The notes under the pieces are model-generated. The model did no database searches and was not told where the DNA came from. It was given only the letters and a program-made list of their open reading frames with translations. Below are positions 494 through 32,778 of a DNA stretch of 33,292 nucleotides, piece after piece. This DNA is from a virus, in IMG/VR virus record IMGVR_UViG_3300035698_019983, positions 1 through 33,292 of that record. One strand, given 5' to 3'. Both the position numbers and the translations under genes were made by a program. Within the stretch, counting starts at the first letter, position 1. The number at the start of each line of letters is the position of its first letter.

Positions 494-695
494 CGTCGAT
501 CATGACAGGCTTGGGATGGTTCCCCCTATGCCTGAACGACTTGCCAACCTTGCTTATTATTATACCATCACTTTGATTTGTCTCTGTTGGGGGCTTGGTC
601 AATGCGGTAAGTTTCCACAAAAGTATCGAATTTAGAGCGGTTAAGGCTATACAGGTTAGCATCAATCCAAGCGCCGTCGCGGTAATAAAAGTCAC
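453..695 (-). CDS. Small single-span membrane protein, possible lysis accessory
   Basis: 80 aa with one N-terminal hydrophobic helix (about residues 3-28), then a charged tail rich in His, Lys and Glu. This is the topology of an inner-membrane spanin or lysis-associated protein, but no specific family is recognised. The GTG start at 695 places the first 128 nt inside the acetyltransferase 3' end; an internal ATG (residue 12) would shorten the overlap but cut into the membrane helix. The 3' end overlaps the next ORF (holin-like) by about 40 nt. Overlapping genes of this kind are typical of phage lysis cassettes. The role is inferred from topology and neighbours only. Confidence 0.5.
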   Translation of the reverse strand: MTFITATALGLMLTCIALTALNSILLWKLTALTKPPTETNQSDGIIISKVGKSFRHRGNHPKPVMIDDAAAYALEQEHRR

Positions 696-1137
696 GTCTC
701 ACCCCTTCGTGGTCCATTCCAATTTTTTCAAATAGTCGATTCGCGGGATTGCCGTCAAAGCATTCACCCCAGATTCTATTAAGACCAAGATCGTAGAAAC
801 CGTATCCAAACAAGTTGACCAACGATGATGTCCCGAATCCTTTGCCGATATATTCTGGATCAATCCAAAGGCTGAATTCAGCTCGGCGGTTCACCAAGTC
901 AATTGATGTGAGACCAGCGCAGCCAAAAGCATACTTGTGTAATGCGTGTTGTAAAATAAACATATCAATACTGGGGTCGGTGGCTTGTTTCTTCATCCAC
1001 GCCAGGTGGTTGTCCATATGGAGCGGCGCGTACTGGCGGCACCAATTCATAACGTCAGGGTGGTTTCGTCCTTCGAATAGAAAATCAGCGTCGTCGCCTC
1101 TAATCCTTCGCAGCCTCGTTTGCGTCTGGATGCTCAT
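568..1137 (-). CDS. GNAT-family N-acetyltransferase (RimJ/PseH-like)
   Basis: About 189 aa covering a complete Acetyltransf_3-type GNAT fold. The N-terminal RLRRIRGDDADFLFEGRN segment is the usual first strand and helix. The acetyl-CoA pyrophosphate loop appears as YIGKGFGTSSL, and the C-terminal part has the family-typical NPANRLFEKIGMDHEGVRR and the GAWIDANLYSL strand. Such enzymes move an acetyl group from acetyl-CoA to an amine; PseH-type members acetylate the amino sugar in pseudaminic-acid pathways. The adjacent sugar genes suggest that role here, but ribosomal-protein acetylation cannot be excluded. I chose ATG 1137 (GAGG about 9 nt upstream); a GTG lies at 1143. The start region sits within a 49-bp duplication. 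Confidence 0.8.
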   Translation of the reverse strand: MSIQTQTRLRRIRGDDADFLFEGRNHPDVMNWCRQYAPLHMDNHLAWMKKQATDPSIDMFILQHALHKYAFGCAGLTSIDLVNRRAEFSLWIDPEYIGKGFGTSSLVNLFGYGFYDLGLNRIWGECFDGNPANRLFEKIGMDHEGVRRDFYYRDGAWIDANLYSLNRSKFDTFVETYRIDQAPNRDKSK

Positions 1138-1192
1138 CTTCACCGCCTCTAATCCTTCGCAGCCTCGTTTGCATCTGGATGCTCATCTTCAC
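1095..1192. repeat. 49-bp tandem duplication at a gene junction
   Basis: Two adjacent copies (1095-1143 and 1144-1192) differ at one position (G/A). Read on the minus strand, one frame encodes the GNAT N-terminus and another the C-terminus of the preceding small ORF. Without the duplication these two genes would overlap in different frames; the duplication gives each its own copy. Confidence 0.9.
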
Positions 1193-1340
1193 CGCTTTTC
1201 TCCACCGAGCACCGAGCCCAGTGCATAGCTTCTGATAGTTTATAAAAAGCCTGGTCCCGCAAGTATCCCTTAGGGAATTGTTGCAACTGTTGGACAGCGT
1301 CGTTTACCGTTTCGATATAGTTACTGAATATAGTTTTCAT
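1149..1340 (-). CDS. Small helical protein, possible Acb2/Tad1-like hairpin domain
   Basis: 63 aa from ATG 1340, which is preceded by AAGG and overlaps the aminotransferase 3' end by 20 nt; a longer in-frame extension to 1421 has no better ribosome site. The segment RDQAFYKLSEAMHWARCSVE resembles the signature of the Acb2/Tad1 hairpin domain: an Arg, then a helix with a hydrophobic pattern ending in M-W-A-x-x-A-type residues. Family members sequester cyclic nucleotide signals and block CBASS or Thoeris immunity. The protein ends in an acidic tail (GEDEHPDANEAAKD). Its place in the sugar cassette is unexpected for this function. Family assignment by eye is tentative; it could be an unrelated helical protein. 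Confidence 0.5.
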   Translation of the reverse strand: MKTIFSNYIETVNDAVQQLQQFPKGYLRDQAFYKLSEAMHWARCSVEKSGEDEHPDANEAAKD

Positions 1341-2967
1341 CACGTACCTTGTTCGCAAATGGACTTTTTGGCATTTCACCCTCAAGGGTGACGCCGTCGT
1401 TTTTAATTCTGAGCAAAACATCGTTTGCTATATTGATAACGTTTTTTCGTTCTGCCTCTAAATCGATGTTGTAAAACCACGATGGACCAAACAGTATTCC
1501 AGCCTTGACCATCTCTTGGAAGAAAAGCGCCAAGGTCTGAGGCTCGCCAACAAACCTGCCACGAGTGTTGTAACCGGCTATTTGAACCCCGTCCCATATG
1601 GCGTTAAAGTCGTCTTTGAAACATCGGCCGAAAGTCCACAAGTTATCAACATGGTATTCAGGCTTTTTGATAACAGTGTCGATGGTGGCGCACATCGCTG
1701 CCAAGGCCGTCGACTCCCCGGCGTAGGTGGACGATACAAAGTAGTCACCATCCATCACATCGGCTTGGCCACAAACCGCACTGAGCGCGTGACCGTTCGC
1801 TATCGCTTTGCCAAGAAGTAACAAGTCTGGCCTGCACTTGTAATACTCAGACACCGTCAGCTTGGGGACGCGCATCCCGGTGATGATCTCATCGAAAATA
1901 AGCAGGGCACCGCTGCTATCGCATTCGTGCCGTAACTTTCTCAAGTATTCTCGATTTTCAACGCTATCATCTAACAATATTGGTTCGACTATTACGCCGG
2001 CCGCGTATTGGATCAAATCTTCATTGCCAGTCAGTGGAAGTATGCCTATGTTTTTGACTATGCCGTGATGTGGTGGATTCAATGAACTGAACTCGTCGGA
2101 CCAGCCATGGTAGTGATCACTTAGGATTAGAAACTTCGGTGAATTTCCCCGTGATGCCTGGGACACAACCACATCACGGATAATGGTTTCGAGTAGTCCT
2201 CGTGATGCGCTTGAATATTTTGTGTAATGCCACAAACTTGACAAGGTTTCTTCTTTATTATCCCCATGTCTTTGGCCGATCTCAACTTCTGATAAACTAG
2301 ACTCTTCCCGTTTTTGGTAACTTTCATATTTCTTATCTGAGAATATCTCTTCTCCGTCGCTATGCCCTTTGCCGTTTTTGCGTATTTCCTTTGGGATATT
2401 CTCATTATTTCCATTATTTCCGGTTTTTTGCGGTACTCCTGGACGCATGTCTTGCAGTCGTTCCTCAGGTTTCCCTTTTTGATTTTGTCTTTGTGAAAAT
2501 CTTCTAATGATTTCTTCAGCGAACACTTCGAATAAATCTTCGTTTCCATCTCTGACCCCATGGTAAGCACGAGCTATTATAATTGACGCGTTACAAGCCT
2601 CGCTCCCCGTCTTAAGAAACTTCACCCGTTCGACCCACGGGACAATCGACTGCACTTTTTTTGCGGCCTTTATCTCCAGAAGAGTTGGCAGGCTGTGACT
2701 GGCACCATCTTTGGCGGCGTCGTAAACGGCTCGGCATATGGTCTCGTTACCGTAGCCGGCTATGTTGGTTCCTAGCCCGCAGATGAAGTCAATGTATCTG
2801 TTACCCTGGACATCGTAAAGGTAGCAGCGTTTGCCGTTTTTGATGTGCGTAGGGTAAACGCCGTAAACGTGGGAGCTTGGGTGCTTGCTGTTGGTCAAGG
2901 CACCTTGAGCTATTGATGCCTGAGCGTCCCGCCATGGACTAAAATCTGAAGATTCCAATGCCCGCAC
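1321..2967 (-). CDS. Class III PLP-dependent aminotransferase (glutamate-1-semialdehyde aminotransferase-like), interrupted by an HNH gene
   Basis: 548 aa, against roughly 400-430 for the family. The fold-type I landmarks are present: KTGSEACNASI (119-129), SDHYHGW (283-289), LIFDEIITG with the PLP-binding Asp (356-364), and LLLLGKAIANG with the probable Schiff-base Lys387. Residues about 138-277 match nothing in the family; the usual protein runs almost directly from ARAY to the SDHYHG strand. This insert is the alternative frame of an HNH endonuclease gene, yet stays in frame without a stop. The GTG start at 2967 overlaps the cytidylyltransferase end by 29 nt. Relatives beside SpsF- and NeuB-like genes act on sugars, so an amino-sugar step is inferred. 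Whether the protein works with the insert is uncertain. Confidence 0.8.
   Translation of the reverse strand: MRALESSDFSPWRDAQASIAQGALTNSKHPSSHVYGVYPTHIKNGKRCYLYDVQGNRYIDFICGLGTNIAGYGNETICRAVYDAAKDGASHSLPTLLEIKAAKKVQSIVPWVERVKFLKTGSEACNASIIIARAYHGVRDGNEDLFEVFAEEIIRRFSQRQNQKGKPEERLQDMRPGVPQKTGNNGNNENIPKEIRKNGKGHSDGEEIFSDKKYESYQKREESSLSEVEIGQRHGDNKEETLSSLWHYTKYSSASRGLLETIIRDVVVSQASRGNSPKFLILSDHYHGWSDEFSSLNPPHHGIVKNIGILPLTGNEDLIQYAAGVIVEPILLDDSVENREYLRKLRHECDSSGALLIFDEIITGMRVPKLTVSEYYKCRPDLLLLGKAIANGHALSAVCGQADVMDGDYFVSSTYAGESTALAAMCATIDTVIKKPEYHVDNLWTFGRCFKDDFNAIWDGVQIAGYNTRGRFVGEPQTLALFFQEMVKAGILFGPSWFYNIDLEAERKNVINIANDVLLRIKNDGVTLEGEMPKSPFANKVRDENYIQ
2127..2549 (-). CDS. HNH homing endonuclease embedded in the aminotransferase gene
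   Basis: 140 aa from ATG 2549 (GGGG 6 nt upstream); in-frame ATGs at 2561 and 2570 are alternatives. The N-terminal half has a zinc-ribbon-like element (SKC, then CKTCVQEY about 25 residues later) followed by a basic region. The C-terminal half is a clear HNH module: CQVCGITQNIQAHHEDYSKP, then WLCPRHHGEIH, with paired Cys and His metal ligands. Such enzymes cut uninserted alleles and spread by repair. It occupies essentially the whole insert in the host gene and is read in a different frame. I see no space for a group I intron core, so it looks like a free-standing HNH gene invading an ORF. Confidence 0.88.
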   Translation of the reverse strand: METKIYSKCSLKKSLEDFHKDKIKKGNLRNDCKTCVQEYRKKPEIMEIMRISQRKYAKTAKGIATEKRYSQIRNMKVTKNGKSLVYQKLRSAKDMGIIKKKPCQVCGITQNIQAHHEDYSKPLSVMWLCPRHHGEIHRSF

Positions 2968-3430
2968 TCCTTGTGTCTTTTATTTTCTGGATTATCCGCC
3001 TTTTGTTCTCACGACATTTTTCTAGTTCTTCTTTTGTGTCGACGCTGAATTTTATATCTGACAAATCAATGTGCCCGATTACAGCGCCATACTTACCCCA
3101 TGCCGGTTTGTTTTGCCGAAGGTATGTCGTGACGTGTTCTTTGTTTGCGGCGTCCAGGTCCTGTTCTGTCATCCACCAGAACAGCTTGCGACTGATCACC
3201 TCGCAATCCATGCCGTCGATATAGGTTCTGGCGTTTTCAAAAACATTCGAGCAATAATCTAGTTTGTTGTTTAGGGCCGTCGCTATGTGTTTGCTGATTA
3301 TAGCCGGCGATATCAATGGGCAGTCTGAAGTTATCCGGACAAAGTAGTCGGGCTCATGAAGGGCACCAGCGTTGATGTAGCGAGAAAGAACGTCCTCCTC
3401 ATCGCCTTCGATGATGTCGTTTTTTAACAC
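2939..3430 (-). CDS. SpsF-like CMP-sugar cytidylyltransferase, C-terminal part (frame-split)
   Basis: 163 codons that continue the nucleotidyltransferase begun in the upstream frame. It contains the family block GDEEDVLSRYINAG, then VRITSDCPLISP with the Asp that binds metal, and the C-terminal DTKEELEK region. SpsF/NeuA-type enzymes activate a sugar acid with CTP to form CMP-sugar. The nominal GTG start at 3430 lies inside the fold and has no convincing ribosome site; the real protein should begin at 3647. The frames join at a run of six A (3420-3425): five would give one uninterrupted protein of about 230 aa. Sequencing error, mutation or slippage are all possible. Confidence 0.75.
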   Translation of the reverse strand: MLKNDIIEGDEEDVLSRYINAGALHEPDYFVRITSDCPLISPAIISKHIATALNNKLDYCSNVFENARTYIDGMDCEVISRKLFWWMTEQDLDAANKEHVTTYLRQNKPAWGKYGAVIGHIDLSDIKFSVDTKEELEKCRENKRRIIQKIKDTRSAGIGIFRF

Positions 3431-3647
3431 TATACTTGTGAATTAGACTATCACCCCTAGGTATCAGCAACGCGACCCTACAATCTATTCCCGTTATGTT
3501 TGATCGGCGGTTTAGGTGGTCCGCGCTTTCGTGGCATGCCTGAAGTACATGGTCAACCATCGTCGTTGTATCAATTAGGGCCATGCATTTATTGGGCAGC
3601 CGTGTCGATGTCGACCGTGCCTGAATGCCTATTACAACTTTCACCAC
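3399..3647 (-). CDS. SpsF-like CMP-sugar cytidylyltransferase, N-terminal part (frame-split)
   Basis: Carries the N-terminal nucleotide-binding signature of the SpsF/NeuA superfamily: VVIGIQARSTSTRLPNKCM, where the R-x-x-S-T-R-L-P-x-K element contacts CTP. The frame then runs to LIPRGDSLIHKYS and ends in a short basic tail (VKKRHHRRR) that does not belong to the fold. The family sequence resumes one frame over at 3425. The GTG start at 3647 overlaps the oxidoreductase stop by 7 nt, indicating translational coupling. Together with the next ORF this would make one activating enzyme of the sugar cassette. If the frameshift is real and not bypassed, only an inactive fragment of about 82 aa is made. 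Confidence 0.75.
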   Translation of the reverse strand: MVKVVIGIQARSTSTRLPNKCMALIDTTTMVDHVLQACHESADHLNRRSNITGIDCRVALLIPRGDSLIHKYSVKKRHHRRR

Positions 3648-4255
3648 TTACCCGTTATATATTTAGCCACCTTGAGGTGTGCTTTGCTAGCGTACGCCCA
3701 GTTTGATTTCGGTTCGTTCACCCAACGCCGAAGCATTGCAACATAGGCTAGGTCCATATTCTCAATTGAAATCTTGTAACCATTAATCATGCACTGCCAG
3801 TAAGGGCTTTGGTTGTCGATGTATTCGGGGCGTTTCTCGCTTAGGCCAATGATATTCAAACAATCCCAATCCAAACCATCCTTACCGCTATTCCAGTACG
3901 AATAGTGTGTTTCTCCGTAGCTATGGGGTTTGGCTAGGAACTCGTATTGGTTTACCATCTGAACTTGAGAACAGATCGGTCGGTGTTCGTTCTCGAATGC
4001 GTCGAGGTGGGCGAGGTTTGTAGTCAGTGGTTTTTCGCATAGGATTGGAAGATTGAAGCCTTGCAAACGTTTGATCATCGCAAGGTGGTTTTGTGTTGGT
4101 GTCGCAATAATGACGCCGTCACAATCTTTTATGCCCTGCAGTGAAGCGGATCCTTTGTCGAAAATGACCACGTCTTTTTTTATGACGTTCTCAAGAATAC
4201 ACTTGTATCGCCGTCCCATATTGCCTTCGCCACCCATGATCGCAATCTTGTTCAT
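3641..4255 (-). CDS. Gfo/Idh/MocA-like NAD(P)-dependent oxidoreductase, short form
   Basis: 204 aa, shorter than the usual 320-380. The N-terminal Rossmann motif IAIMGGEGNMGRRY (4-17) replaces the common GxGxxG with a related Gly-rich loop. IIATPTQNHLAMI and ILCEKPLTTN follow, the latter being the EKP signature with the Lys that helps bind cofactor and substrate. The substrate-binding half is reduced: it keeps an aromatic-rich section (YSYWNSGKDGLDWDC) and a C-terminal helix ending at the stop. Similar proteins lie beside SpsE/SpsF-like genes in surface-sugar clusters and oxidise or reduce sugar intermediates. The start overlaps the upstream stop as ATGA. The substrate is unknown. Confidence 0.78.
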   Translation of the reverse strand: MNKIAIMGGEGNMGRRYKCILENVIKKDVVIFDKGSASLQGIKDCDGVIIATPTQNHLAMIKRLQGFNLPILCEKPLTTNLAHLDAFENEHRPICSQVQMVNQYEFLAKPHSYGETHYSYWNSGKDGLDWDCLNIIGLSEKRPEYIDNQSPYWQCMINGYKISIENMDLAYVAMLRRWVNEPKSNWAYASKAHLKVAKYITGKW

Positions 4256-23646: not shown

Positions 23647-25380
23647 CTATTTTGACTGCCTTTTTACCAGCTGCTCAACACGTGCCATCATTATATCGCA
23701 ATATTCTGGCTCCATCTCAGCACCGATAAACTGAAACCCATTCTTAAGAGCCGCGAGTGCTGTTGTCCCAGAGCCTGAAAAACAATCCAGCACCACGCCA
23801 TTAGTCGGCGTAACAAGCGTTGCGAAATATGACATGAGGCGGATTGGTTTGACGGTTGGATGGTGGTTTGTTTGATTTGATGATCCTTCATTACGCTCAG
23901 ACTTACTTGGCTTGGCGCAATAGAAAAACCGTGAAGCGCCGCCGGTGTCGCCGAATCTAACGCCATTACTCTCATGATTGCCAATGCCAAACATCCCACC
24001 GTCATTTTCTTGTACCGAGTTACCCTTAGACCTTTGCTTACCAGCGCCATGCATACCACCAGCTAAACTCTGCGCATCCAACAACGCCGGTGCATCGCCA
24101 GACAAAACTAGGTTCGCGGGAAAGCGGCCTTGGGTGTTATCCGGCTTTGGATCTCTTGCGTAATTTTTACCACTCATTGACGTGTTGCTGGATTCTTTGC
24201 TACCAGACTTAGACCATCCTGATTTAAATTCACCTTCAACCCTACACCCATCGATATTAATCCCACCAACACCCCATTTCAAAACATTCGCGGCCACCGT
24301 CTTTTCACTGCACGGTTTGCGCACCAATATCCAATGCTCGCTTGCGGGCTTAAGCGCCGTTCCCCAACCATCGTAGCCGTAATCTCCGGTTGCCTGATCA
24401 CCAAGCTTACCCTTGCTTTTATCAATCGCCTTTGAAATGTCGATTGACTTCGGAAACCCAGAACCAAACAAATGCGTCACCACATCTCTAATCTCAAAGC
24501 CCGCGTCCTCTAACGCCGTTGCAGTCCAATGCGATGTTCTAGGTATCGCCCAAACCAAACCATGCGCGCCGGGCTTAAGAACCCGAAGCGTTTCACTCAT
24601 GACTTCAGTGAGCCAAGCAATCCACTGCTTCGAACCGCCTTTATCATCGTCCCATTCTTTACCCATAAAGCTGATACCAGCCGGTGGATCTGTCACAAGC
24701 GAATCAACTGAATTGTCTGGCAAACCCTTCAGCATTTCCAAGCAATCGAGGTTAAACAGTTTGAAACCATCCAACTCGAAAACATCGCCGGGTTTGGTTC
24801 TGGGCTCAATTTTTTCCGGGATTGAATCATCGGGGTCGTCATCTTCTTCTTTAGTAGCCGCTTCCTTCTTACCACCCTCGCCGTCACTGAAGTCAAAATC
24901 ACCGGGATCGAAACCAAGCGCACCAATATCGTAGTCGTCTTCATGCAGCGATTGAAGCAGTGAGCCGAGAGCGTCGTCGTCCCATTCTTTACCCATAAAG
25001 CTGATACCAGCCGGTGGATCTGTCACAAGCGAATCAATATCGTAGTCGTCTTCATGCAGCGATTGAAGCAGTGAGCCGAGAGCGTCGTCGTCCCACTCAC
25101 TCATGTCCGTCGTGCGGTTGTCAGCCAGGGCGTAGGCCGTGGCGTCTGCGCCGGTGAGTTTAGTTCTAACCACGCCGATCTTGTCCCAACCCAAAGAGCG
25201 CGCTGCTTCTAACGTACCGTTTCCCGCAAGTACGACCCCGCCCTTGCCGACCACGATGGGTTTTTGTTGGCCGAATTTGGCCAGGCTACCTTTGATGGCC
25301 TCGAGGTTTTTCTCGGGATGCCGCCGGGCGTTGGACGGATCCATCACCAGTTTGTCGAGAGCTAGCTGTTCAACTCGCAC
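23647..25380 (-). CDS. ParB-like domain fused to a DNA methyltransferase
   Basis: 577 aa from GTG 25380. Residues 1-95 are a ParB/sulfiredoxin-type domain (DPSNARRHPEKNLEAIKGSL, GGVVLAGNGTLEAARSLG, ALADNRT). Residues about 205-577 are an N6/N4-type DNA methyltransferase: motif IV VTDPPAGISFMG (229-240; DPPA in place of DPPY), a long target-recognition region, HPTVKPIRLMSYF, and the SAM-binding motif VVLDCFSGSGTTALAA near the C-terminus. Such fusions are frequent in phages and probably protect phage DNA from host restriction. Residues 116-152 are an in-frame 111-bp insertion made of copied pieces, including a second copy of motif IV. The upstream 57-aa gene overlaps the start. Confidence 0.85.
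   Translation of the reverse strand: MRVEQLALDKLVMDPSNARRHPEKNLEAIKGSLAKFGQQKPIVVGKGGVVLAGNGTLEAARSLGWDKIGVVRTKLTGADATAYALADNRTTDMSEWDDDALGSLLQSLHEDDYDIDSLVTDPPAGISFMGKEWDDDALGSLLQSLHEDDYDIGALGFDPGDFDFSDGEGGKKEAATKEEDDDPDDSIPEKIEPRTKPGDVFELDGFKLFNLDCLEMLKGLPDNSVDSLVTDPPAGISFMGKEWDDDKGGSKQWIAWLTEVMSETLRVLKPGAHGLVWAIPRTSHWTATALEDAGFEIRDVVTHLFGSGFPKSIDISKAIDKSKGKLGDQATGDYGYDGWGTALKPASEHWILVRKPCSEKTVAANVLKWGVGGINIDGCRVEGEFKSGWSKSGSKESSNTSMSGKNYARDPKPDNTQGRFPANLVLSGDAPALLDAQSLAGGMHGAGKQRSKGNSVQENDGGMFGIGNHESNGVRFGDTGGASRFFYCAKPSKSERNEGSSNQTNHHPTVKPIRLMSYFATLVTPTNGVVLDCFSGSGTTALAALKNGFQFIGAEMEPEYCDIMMARVEQLVKRQSK
24925..25035. repeat. 111-bp in-frame templated insertion with two internal source copies
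   Basis: The segment encodes DSLVTDPPAGISFMGKEWDD then DALGSLLQSLHEDDYDI. Its first part equals 24643-24705 (true motif IV of the methyltransferase); its second repeats the neighbouring sequence (25036-25097). The shared EWDDD-coding bases could be the switch point. The match to the source is essentially exact, so the event is recent or an assembly join. Confidence 0.85.
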
Positions 25381-32062: not shown

Positions 32063-32128
32063 TTGAAAACGACAATTAATTTTACAAAAGAAGAAGTGTT
32101 TCAAATAGTGTTTTGTGAGGATTCGTAA
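32063..32128 (+). CDS. Possible 21-aa peptide with TINFTKE N-terminus
   Basis: TTG 32063 (AGGGA upstream) starts LKTTINFTKEEVFQIVFCED and the stop overlaps the next start as TAATG. The same beginning, TINFTKE, recurs in the short ORF at 32768, within an 18-bp direct repeat. This favours a real short gene or a duplicated 5' end over chance. Function unknown. Confidence 0.4.
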   Translation: MKTTINFTKEEVFQIVFCEDS

Positions 32129-32778
32129 TGAACGCGTACCACGGTAGTCAAAAAATTAAAGACAAGTATCTGCATCGGGTGAAGGAACACGCCAGGCTTG
32201 ATCGCATCATCCAAGGAACGGGTTGGGACGGGACAAACGGATGTGCGATCGGGTGTATTTTTGAAGAGTACGACCATGACCTGGCCCCAAAAGAAATTGG
32301 AATGCCAATTTGGTTGGCGAAGGTTGTGGATAAATTCCACGAAGGTCAGTCTTTAGACAATGCTAAAAATTGGCCTGTTGTGGTTATTAACGCTATTAAA
32401 CCCGGTAAAAATCTCGAACTGGTTAAAGCGCCGTTTTTGATATTCGTACTTGAATCAACGCTGAAAACTTTTAATCATGATGATTTTCCTGCAGTAAAAC
32501 AATCAATCGATACGGTTGTAGAGCTATACAAAACAGGAGAAACAGACAAAGAAAAATTCAGGTCTGCTGCTGCTATTGCTGCTGCTATTGCTGCTGCTAT
32601 TGCTGCTGCTGCTGATGCTGCTGCTATTGCTGCTGCTATTGCTGCTGATGATTATGATGCTATTGCTGCTGCTGCTGATGCTGCTGCTATTGCTGCTGCT
32701 GATTATGATGCTTCACGGAAAGATACATACAAAATATTGGCAGACAAGTTGATTGAGATTATTGGATATGACAATTAA
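32128..32778 (+). CDS. Protein with a long Ala-rich trinucleotide-repeat segment
   Basis: 216 aa with GAGG upstream of ATG 32128. Residues 1-145 form an ordinary helical domain (NAYHGSQKIKDKYLHRVKEH; IGMPIWLAKVVDKFHEGQSL). Residues 147-195 are an imperfect repeat of Ala with Ile, Asp and Tyr (AAAIAAAIAAAADAAAIAAA), encoded largely by GCT, ATT, GAT and TAT codons, followed by a normal helical C-terminus (KILADKLIEIIGYDN). Similar Ala-rich repeats are known in phage and bacterial proteins of unknown role and should form a long helix or a pentapeptide-like coil. The repeat DNA is prone to length change. Confidence 0.65.
   Translation: MNAYHGSQKIKDKYLHRVKEHARLDRIIQGTGWDGTNGCAIGCIFEEYDHDLAPKEIGMPIWLAKVVDKFHEGQSLDNAKNWPVVVINAIKPGKNLELVKAPFLIFVLESTLKTFNHDDFPAVKQSIDTVVELYKTGETDKEKFRSAAAIAAAIAAAIAAAADAAAIAAAIAADDYDAIAAAADAAAIAAADYDASRKDTYKILADKLIEIIGYDN
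32566..32712 (+). repeat. GCT-rich trinucleotide microsatellite within a gene
   Basis: 147 bp made almost wholly of GCT units with ATT, GAT and TAT interspersed. All repeat units keep the reading frame, so length changes would add or remove residues without breaking the gene. Confidence 0.85.

Follow-up and report, generated by a model that had tools for sequence, protein, structure and literature searches.

How can an HNH endonuclease gene persist inside a phage aminotransferase gene when it comes with neither an intron nor an intein? A selfish endonuclease gene is generally believed to need an intron or an intein, which removes it, in order to live safely within a conserved gene. The window, by which we mean the whole stretch of 33,292 nucleotides analyzed here, comes from a virus (IMG/VR contig, 33.3 kb) and encodes a portal protein, a terminase, a major head protein and a primase; close to its left end the minus strand carries a nucleotide-sugar cluster. 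The genes of this cluster and the features within its aminotransferase gene are as follows.

568-1143, minus strand: GNAT acetyltransferase of the nucleotide-sugar cluster
1321-2967, minus strand: aminotransferase of the same cluster, a GSAM-like class-III aminotransferase ORF of 548 aa, open through the insert (Pfam Aminotran_3 E=2e-34; PRK00062/HemL-like)
1321-2136, minus strand: aminotransferase residues 278-548 plus the stop codon, forming the C-terminal exon (from alignment with viral homologues lacking the insert)
2137-2556, minus strand: insert, 420 nt or 140 aminotransferase-frame codons with no stop, without counterpart in 68 viral homologues
2557-2967, minus strand: aminotransferase residues 1-137, forming the N-terminal exon (from alignment with viral homologues lacking the insert)
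2127-2549, minus strand: HNH endonuclease gene in the +1 frame, likely start ATG 2549 (phrog_2340 E=6e-24; 55% identity with the HNH of a second carrier, L002)
2139-2210, minus strand: HNH core AHHEDYSKPLSVMWLCPRHHGEIH (invariant or nearly invariant alignment columns)
2556-2559, minus strand: SD-like GGGG, 6 nt before ATG 2549, a putative ribosome-binding site from its sequence context
2939-3647, minus strand: cytidylyltransferase of the nucleotide-sugar cluster, frameshifted
3641-4255, minus strand: oxidoreductase of the nucleotide-sugar cluster

The initial annotation had noticed an HNH gene nested in the aminotransferase in another frame, with both frames open, and this arrangement is borne out: the HNH open frame, which reaches upstream of the likely start to GTG 2570 (ORF 2127-2570, minus strand), lies in the +1 frame within the aminotransferase ORF. 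The junctions could be defined, as it had proposed, through uninserted homologues. Viral loci encoding relatives of the aminotransferase number 76, L002's own contig among them, and in 68 other loci the N- and C-terminal halves are directly joined at ..A-T-G|R.., placing the insert at 2137-2556; six of the remaining loci gave no detectable N-terminal match and one (L105) has an intein-like insertion nearby. The extra segment is aminotransferase residues 138-277, between ...IARAYHG and KFLILSDHYHGW, so that the about 140 additional residues estimated earlier become exactly 140 codons. The range given earlier, 2127-2967, does contain the nested HNH gene but also takes in the whole N-terminal exon. 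No relative with an intact family-specific domain at the insert site, which would have spoken against an insertion, was found; the 68 relatives are without the insert. The HNH ORF fills the whole insert, which contains little else, and through it the aminotransferase frame has no stop and the third frame has many.

L105 (1501-3900) is an observation in its own right. Its homologous aminotransferase contains an in-frame intein-like insertion of about 330 residues (from ..CYDDKTEIL.. to ..WSGN|S), recognized by eye and not by a profile, some 10 residues past the HNH site, and hence two kinds of mobile element target one gene segment.

The same nested arrangement was observed in L002, a phage from another metagenome, in which an insert of 139 codons (417 nt) occupies the identical site and frame and the host frame is also open. 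Scans with the HNH, the aminotransferase, the 3' junction and the 5' junction gave no carrier beyond L002.

Is the host frame open merely by chance? A host-frame stop arises where an HNH codon ending in T precedes a codon starting with AA, AG or GA. Before such codons a third-position T was found in 0/52 cases in the window and again in 0/52 in L002, compared with 24/91 (window, Fisher p = 9e-6) and 18/90 (L002, p = 1.6e-4) at other places. When the HNH protein was held fixed and codons were drawn from each phage's own usage, which is our main null, about 10 host-frame stops were expected over the whole HNH ORF of the window (simulation mean 9.9) and about 15 over that of L002, and the exact probability of zero host-frame stops within the insert was 1.5e-5 and 2.6e-9, respectively. 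Shuffling each gene's own synonymous codons gave P=7e-4 for the window and 5e-5 for L002. The suspicion that about 140 stop-free codons had a low chance of arising by luck is thus confirmed by numbers, and recurs in the second phage. Eleven HNH relatives carry 7-20 stops in the equivalent frame, and among a further 65 the median is 12, with zero stops in none.

Two kinds of apparent nesting elsewhere were considered and set aside. An HNH relative, L197 (1870-2361), has its other alternative frame open over 164 codons, but its upstream gene ends at the HNH and the median for that frame among the 65 loci checked is only 5 stops, so that this open frame is probably due to chance. Nesting also seemed to be indicated by the labels 'baseplate wedge', 'recombinase' and 'ssb' under HNH matches in phage records, all of which turned out to be misnamings or short overlaps.

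The initial annotation had offered either selection for an open frame or a recent insertion as the explanation. The former is supported, since stops are avoided codon by codon in two divergent phages, but the latter is not: the HNH proteins of the window and L002 are only 55% identical and the exons 48-49% identical, with synonymous sites of the exons at the random level (20 identical codons vs 21.2 expected, and 47 vs 42.4 expected), and this saturation together with the HNH divergence makes a recent insertion unlikely. A single ancestral insertion inherited with the host gene was also rejected, unless the insert was lost many times. In the host-gene tree, built from 38 exon-only proteins, the sister of L002 is L072, which lacks the insert (99/94), and a clade of window and L002 was rejected by the AU test with p=0.005, although with two carriers only the distribution is weakly sampled. 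Thus, the insert is old, site-specific and discordant with the host-gene tree, as expected of homing. Its GC content, 0.41 in the window and L002 alike, is below that of the window exons (0.49), which fits lateral arrival.

Both HNH proteins match the phrog_2340 profile (E=2e-25 for L002) and keep the conserved HNH/zinc core residues, except for one N-terminal Cys missing in the window copy: in the N-terminal CxxC zinc knuckle, the window has Tyr in place of the first Cys (IYSKC, residues 9-13 from ATG 2561), whereas L002 retains the Cys. Judging from this Cys-to-Tyr change, the window copy may be decaying or impaired. A search of solved structures with the HNH returned no credible relative. 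ATG 2549 sits 7 nt inside the insert and the HNH stop codon lies in the downstream aminotransferase exon. L002 has GGAG at the position equivalent to the GGGG of the window, and the SD-like motif together with the ATG suggests, at the level of sequence, internal initiation of the HNH. In L003 (1447-1890), L049 (2241-2630) and L055 (3810-4286) a free-standing HNH gene of this family flanks the aminotransferase gene directly, on one side or the other, and in L049 the 3' end of the HNH overlaps the aminotransferase start.

The host protein is a class-III aminotransferase of the GSAM-like type, with fold type I and a PLP lysine (K387, invariant), as seen in Pfam, PDB and Foldseek matches, and its best structural matches are GSAM chains (2hoz_B, TMt 0.81). 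The PLP residues of the aminotransferase are conserved, as are the HNH core residues. AlphaFold2 predicted the core of the fused window protein with pLDDT mostly >90 on both sides of the insert and the insert itself with 33-83, and it predicted helices at both insert ends in the window and L002; the L002 protein was otherwise similar, with an additional weak stretch at residues 290-301. The insert is placed between the helix that begins with the GSEA motif and the strand that runs up to YHGW. In fold type I enzymes the end of this helix presumably faces away from the PLP site, and from this general knowledge of the fold the loop is probably located on the enzyme face opposite the active site. 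Terminal branches in the host-gene tree are ordinary (0.72 for the window vs a median of 0.70; 0.60 for L002 vs 0.59 for its sister L072), and therefore show no pseudogene-like acceleration.

Taken together, it is quite probable that this homing endonuclease gene persists without an intron or intein since selection keeps the host frame open, giving a one-chain enzyme and an internally started HNH. The minimal mobile element would consist of a phrog_2340-type HNH gene together with the few bases needed to start its translation, seated in the +1 frame in a helix-to-strand loop of the phage aminotransferase. The ribosome would read through it to make a single, still active aminotransferase of about 548 aa with a loop of about 140 residues, and internal initiation on the mRNA of the aminotransferase (SD-like GGRG, then ATG after 6 nt) would yield the HNH. 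The HNH could then nick or cut uninserted alleles at the insert site, and repair would copy the insert across. Several points count against this reading. The element would have had to enter without breaking the host gene, although a dozen or so stops in this frame are typical of HNH relatives; in addition, there are two known carriers only, a zinc Cys is missing from the window HNH, and the window cytidylyltransferase is frameshifted.

Among the alternatives, the one that survives best, although we regard it as improbable, is that selection acts on a function of the host-frame peptide, which would make the locus a true overlapping gene that provides the enzyme with a useful loop domain. The host-frame insert peptides of the window and L002 are 37% identical, compared with 27% in a codon-randomised null (P=7e-4), even though the exon synonymous sites are saturated, and the helices predicted at both insert ends of both proteins would fit this reading. 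This excess may reflect selection on the loop peptide, but inserts whose common ancestor is younger than that of the exons, as a result of homing, would give an equal excess, and the relatives do well without the loop; the signal is weak and we do not rely on it.

It is very unlikely that the insert is removed from the product by a self-splicing intron, with the HNH as its intron ORF, or by ribosomal bypass. Phage group I introns commonly carry HNH genes and T4 gene 60 is a known case of bypass (PMC5009743), but here the HNH ORF occupies the entire insert and ends in the exon. The earlier judgment that there is no room for an intron core holds: hardly anything but the HNH ORF makes up the insert, and no match to any Rfam family, including group I intron core RNA, was obtained at gathering thresholds or even at E<=1. 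Moreover, the strong avoidance of host-frame stops favors read-through over splicing or bypass, since an open frame is of no use in a sequence that is removed.

Chance combined with decay, with a host frame that merely happens to be open and an aminotransferase gene that is either a pseudogene or broken and dispensable, is highly unlikely as well. That there are two carriers only and that the cytidylyltransferase next to the window aminotransferase is frameshifted would fit such a reading, but the probabilities given above were obtained in two divergent phages, the frame is open in 0/65 HNH relatives, branch lengths are ordinary and the catalytic residues intact, and the operon of L002 is intact, cytidylyltransferase included. 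Finally, removal at the protein level, with the host-frame peptide as an unknown intein-like or protease-cut segment, is scarcely credible, because, although the insert lies in a loop with ends predicted to be helical and a homologue has an intein-like insertion about 10 residues away, there is no Hint domain (Pfam finds Aminotran_3 only on the fused protein), the residue after the insert is Lys and not Cys/Ser/Thr, and the sequence of the host-frame peptide follows mostly from that of the HNH.

Read-through of an insert under selection for an open host frame has a precedent in arrangement. In DNA methylases of mycobacteriophages, the ShiLan domain and the Pacc40 gp60 insertion are HNH elements read out of frame (Arsenault, Gosselin and Gogarten 2025, PMC11855218), and they share with the window an HNH ORF in another frame of a phage gene, an open host frame and the lack of any signature of an intron or intein. 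For the ShiLan insert, PMC11855218 describes a disjunct distribution and predicts a loop away from the host fold; in the window we likewise find an insertion at a defined site missing from relatives, a stop-free host frame (0 in 140 codons, and 0 in 139 in L002), an HNH in another frame and discordance with the host tree. In other phages, free-standing relatives of the Pacc40-type HNH lie upstream of the host gene (PMC11855218), which is comparable to what is seen in the HNH family of the window. On the other hand, the host gene is a PLP aminotransferase here and a methylase there, the HNH frame is +1 here and the third frame there, the HNH stop codon lies in the host exon only here, and an SD-like site is present here, whereas the ShiLan authors found none (PMC11855218). 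BLASTP against the ShiLan and Pacc40 HNH gave matches with E>=0.3 only, indicating a like arrangement in a separate lineage. The same codon test applied to ShiLan gave 0 stops with 2.45 expected (P=0.04) and to Pacc40 0 stops with 1.16 expected (P=0.21), and because of the high GC there an open frame is fairly likely to arise by chance in these two cases, unlike in the window.

Other known systems are more distant. Aeh1 nrdA is a gene-in-pieces case of the mobE type. In mobE-type insertions (phage nrdA genes-in-pieces; T4 gene 39/60) a homing endonuclease gene likewise lies in or beside a phage metabolic gene without an intron, but the host gene becomes two ORFs, whereas the window aminotransferase stays one uninterrupted ORF of 548 aa; such split genes are described in PMC10448857 and PMC5009743. 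Inteins and intron-encoded HNH endonucleases (e.g. I-PfoP3I, PMC3428280) likewise occupy a conserved site of a host gene, but carry a splicing element, and the window insert has neither kind. Free-standing phage phrog_2340 HNH endonucleases, finally, are the sequence family of the window HNH, and differ in the stops that they carry in the equivalent frame.

Among open-access PMC papers, we found one earlier description of an out-of-frame HNH in a host gene without splicing, the ShiLan report of 2025. As judged from sequence comparison, the window case is new in its host gene and in its HNH, which is unrelated to that of ShiLan, and the window and L002 provide, to our knowledge, the strongest evidence of selection on the host frame in this arrangement. 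The ShiLan report proposed dual coding as a third way from GC-rich phages (PMC11855218). With 47% GC in the window and about 40% in L002, 10 and 15 stops expected and 0 present, and recurrence in a non-sister allele, the proposal of dual coding gains measurable selection, in an unrelated gene and with an unrelated HNH. A broader idea, which we put forward tentatively and hold to be rather doubtful, is that dual coding could be a third stable route besides introns and inteins, by which a nuclease gene is purged of host-frame stops and its read-through peptide becomes a selected mobile loop domain. A simple screen follows from these observations, namely for HNH genes with an open alternative frame that continues a conserved protein on both sides; annotation pipelines will call just one of two such nested genes.

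The remaining observations concern the contig itself. The window cytidylyltransferase is split by a frameshift near 3420, at a run of six A, and a sequencing (homopolymer) error, decay or recoding are possibly all compatible with it; with this gene frameshifted, the pathway may not be intact in the window. Two near-perfect tandem duplications of 44 and 49 bp (97-98% match) are located at 257-346 and 1095-1195, in adjacent genes of the nucleotide-sugar cluster. Elsewhere, the protein encoded at 23647-25380 on the minus strand matches ParB-like nuclease profiles with its N-terminus and DNA methyltransferase profiles with the remainder, and a tandem array of 12-bp and 51-bp units at 32564-32712 lies within an ORF (32128-32778, plus strand) that encodes a repetitive protein.
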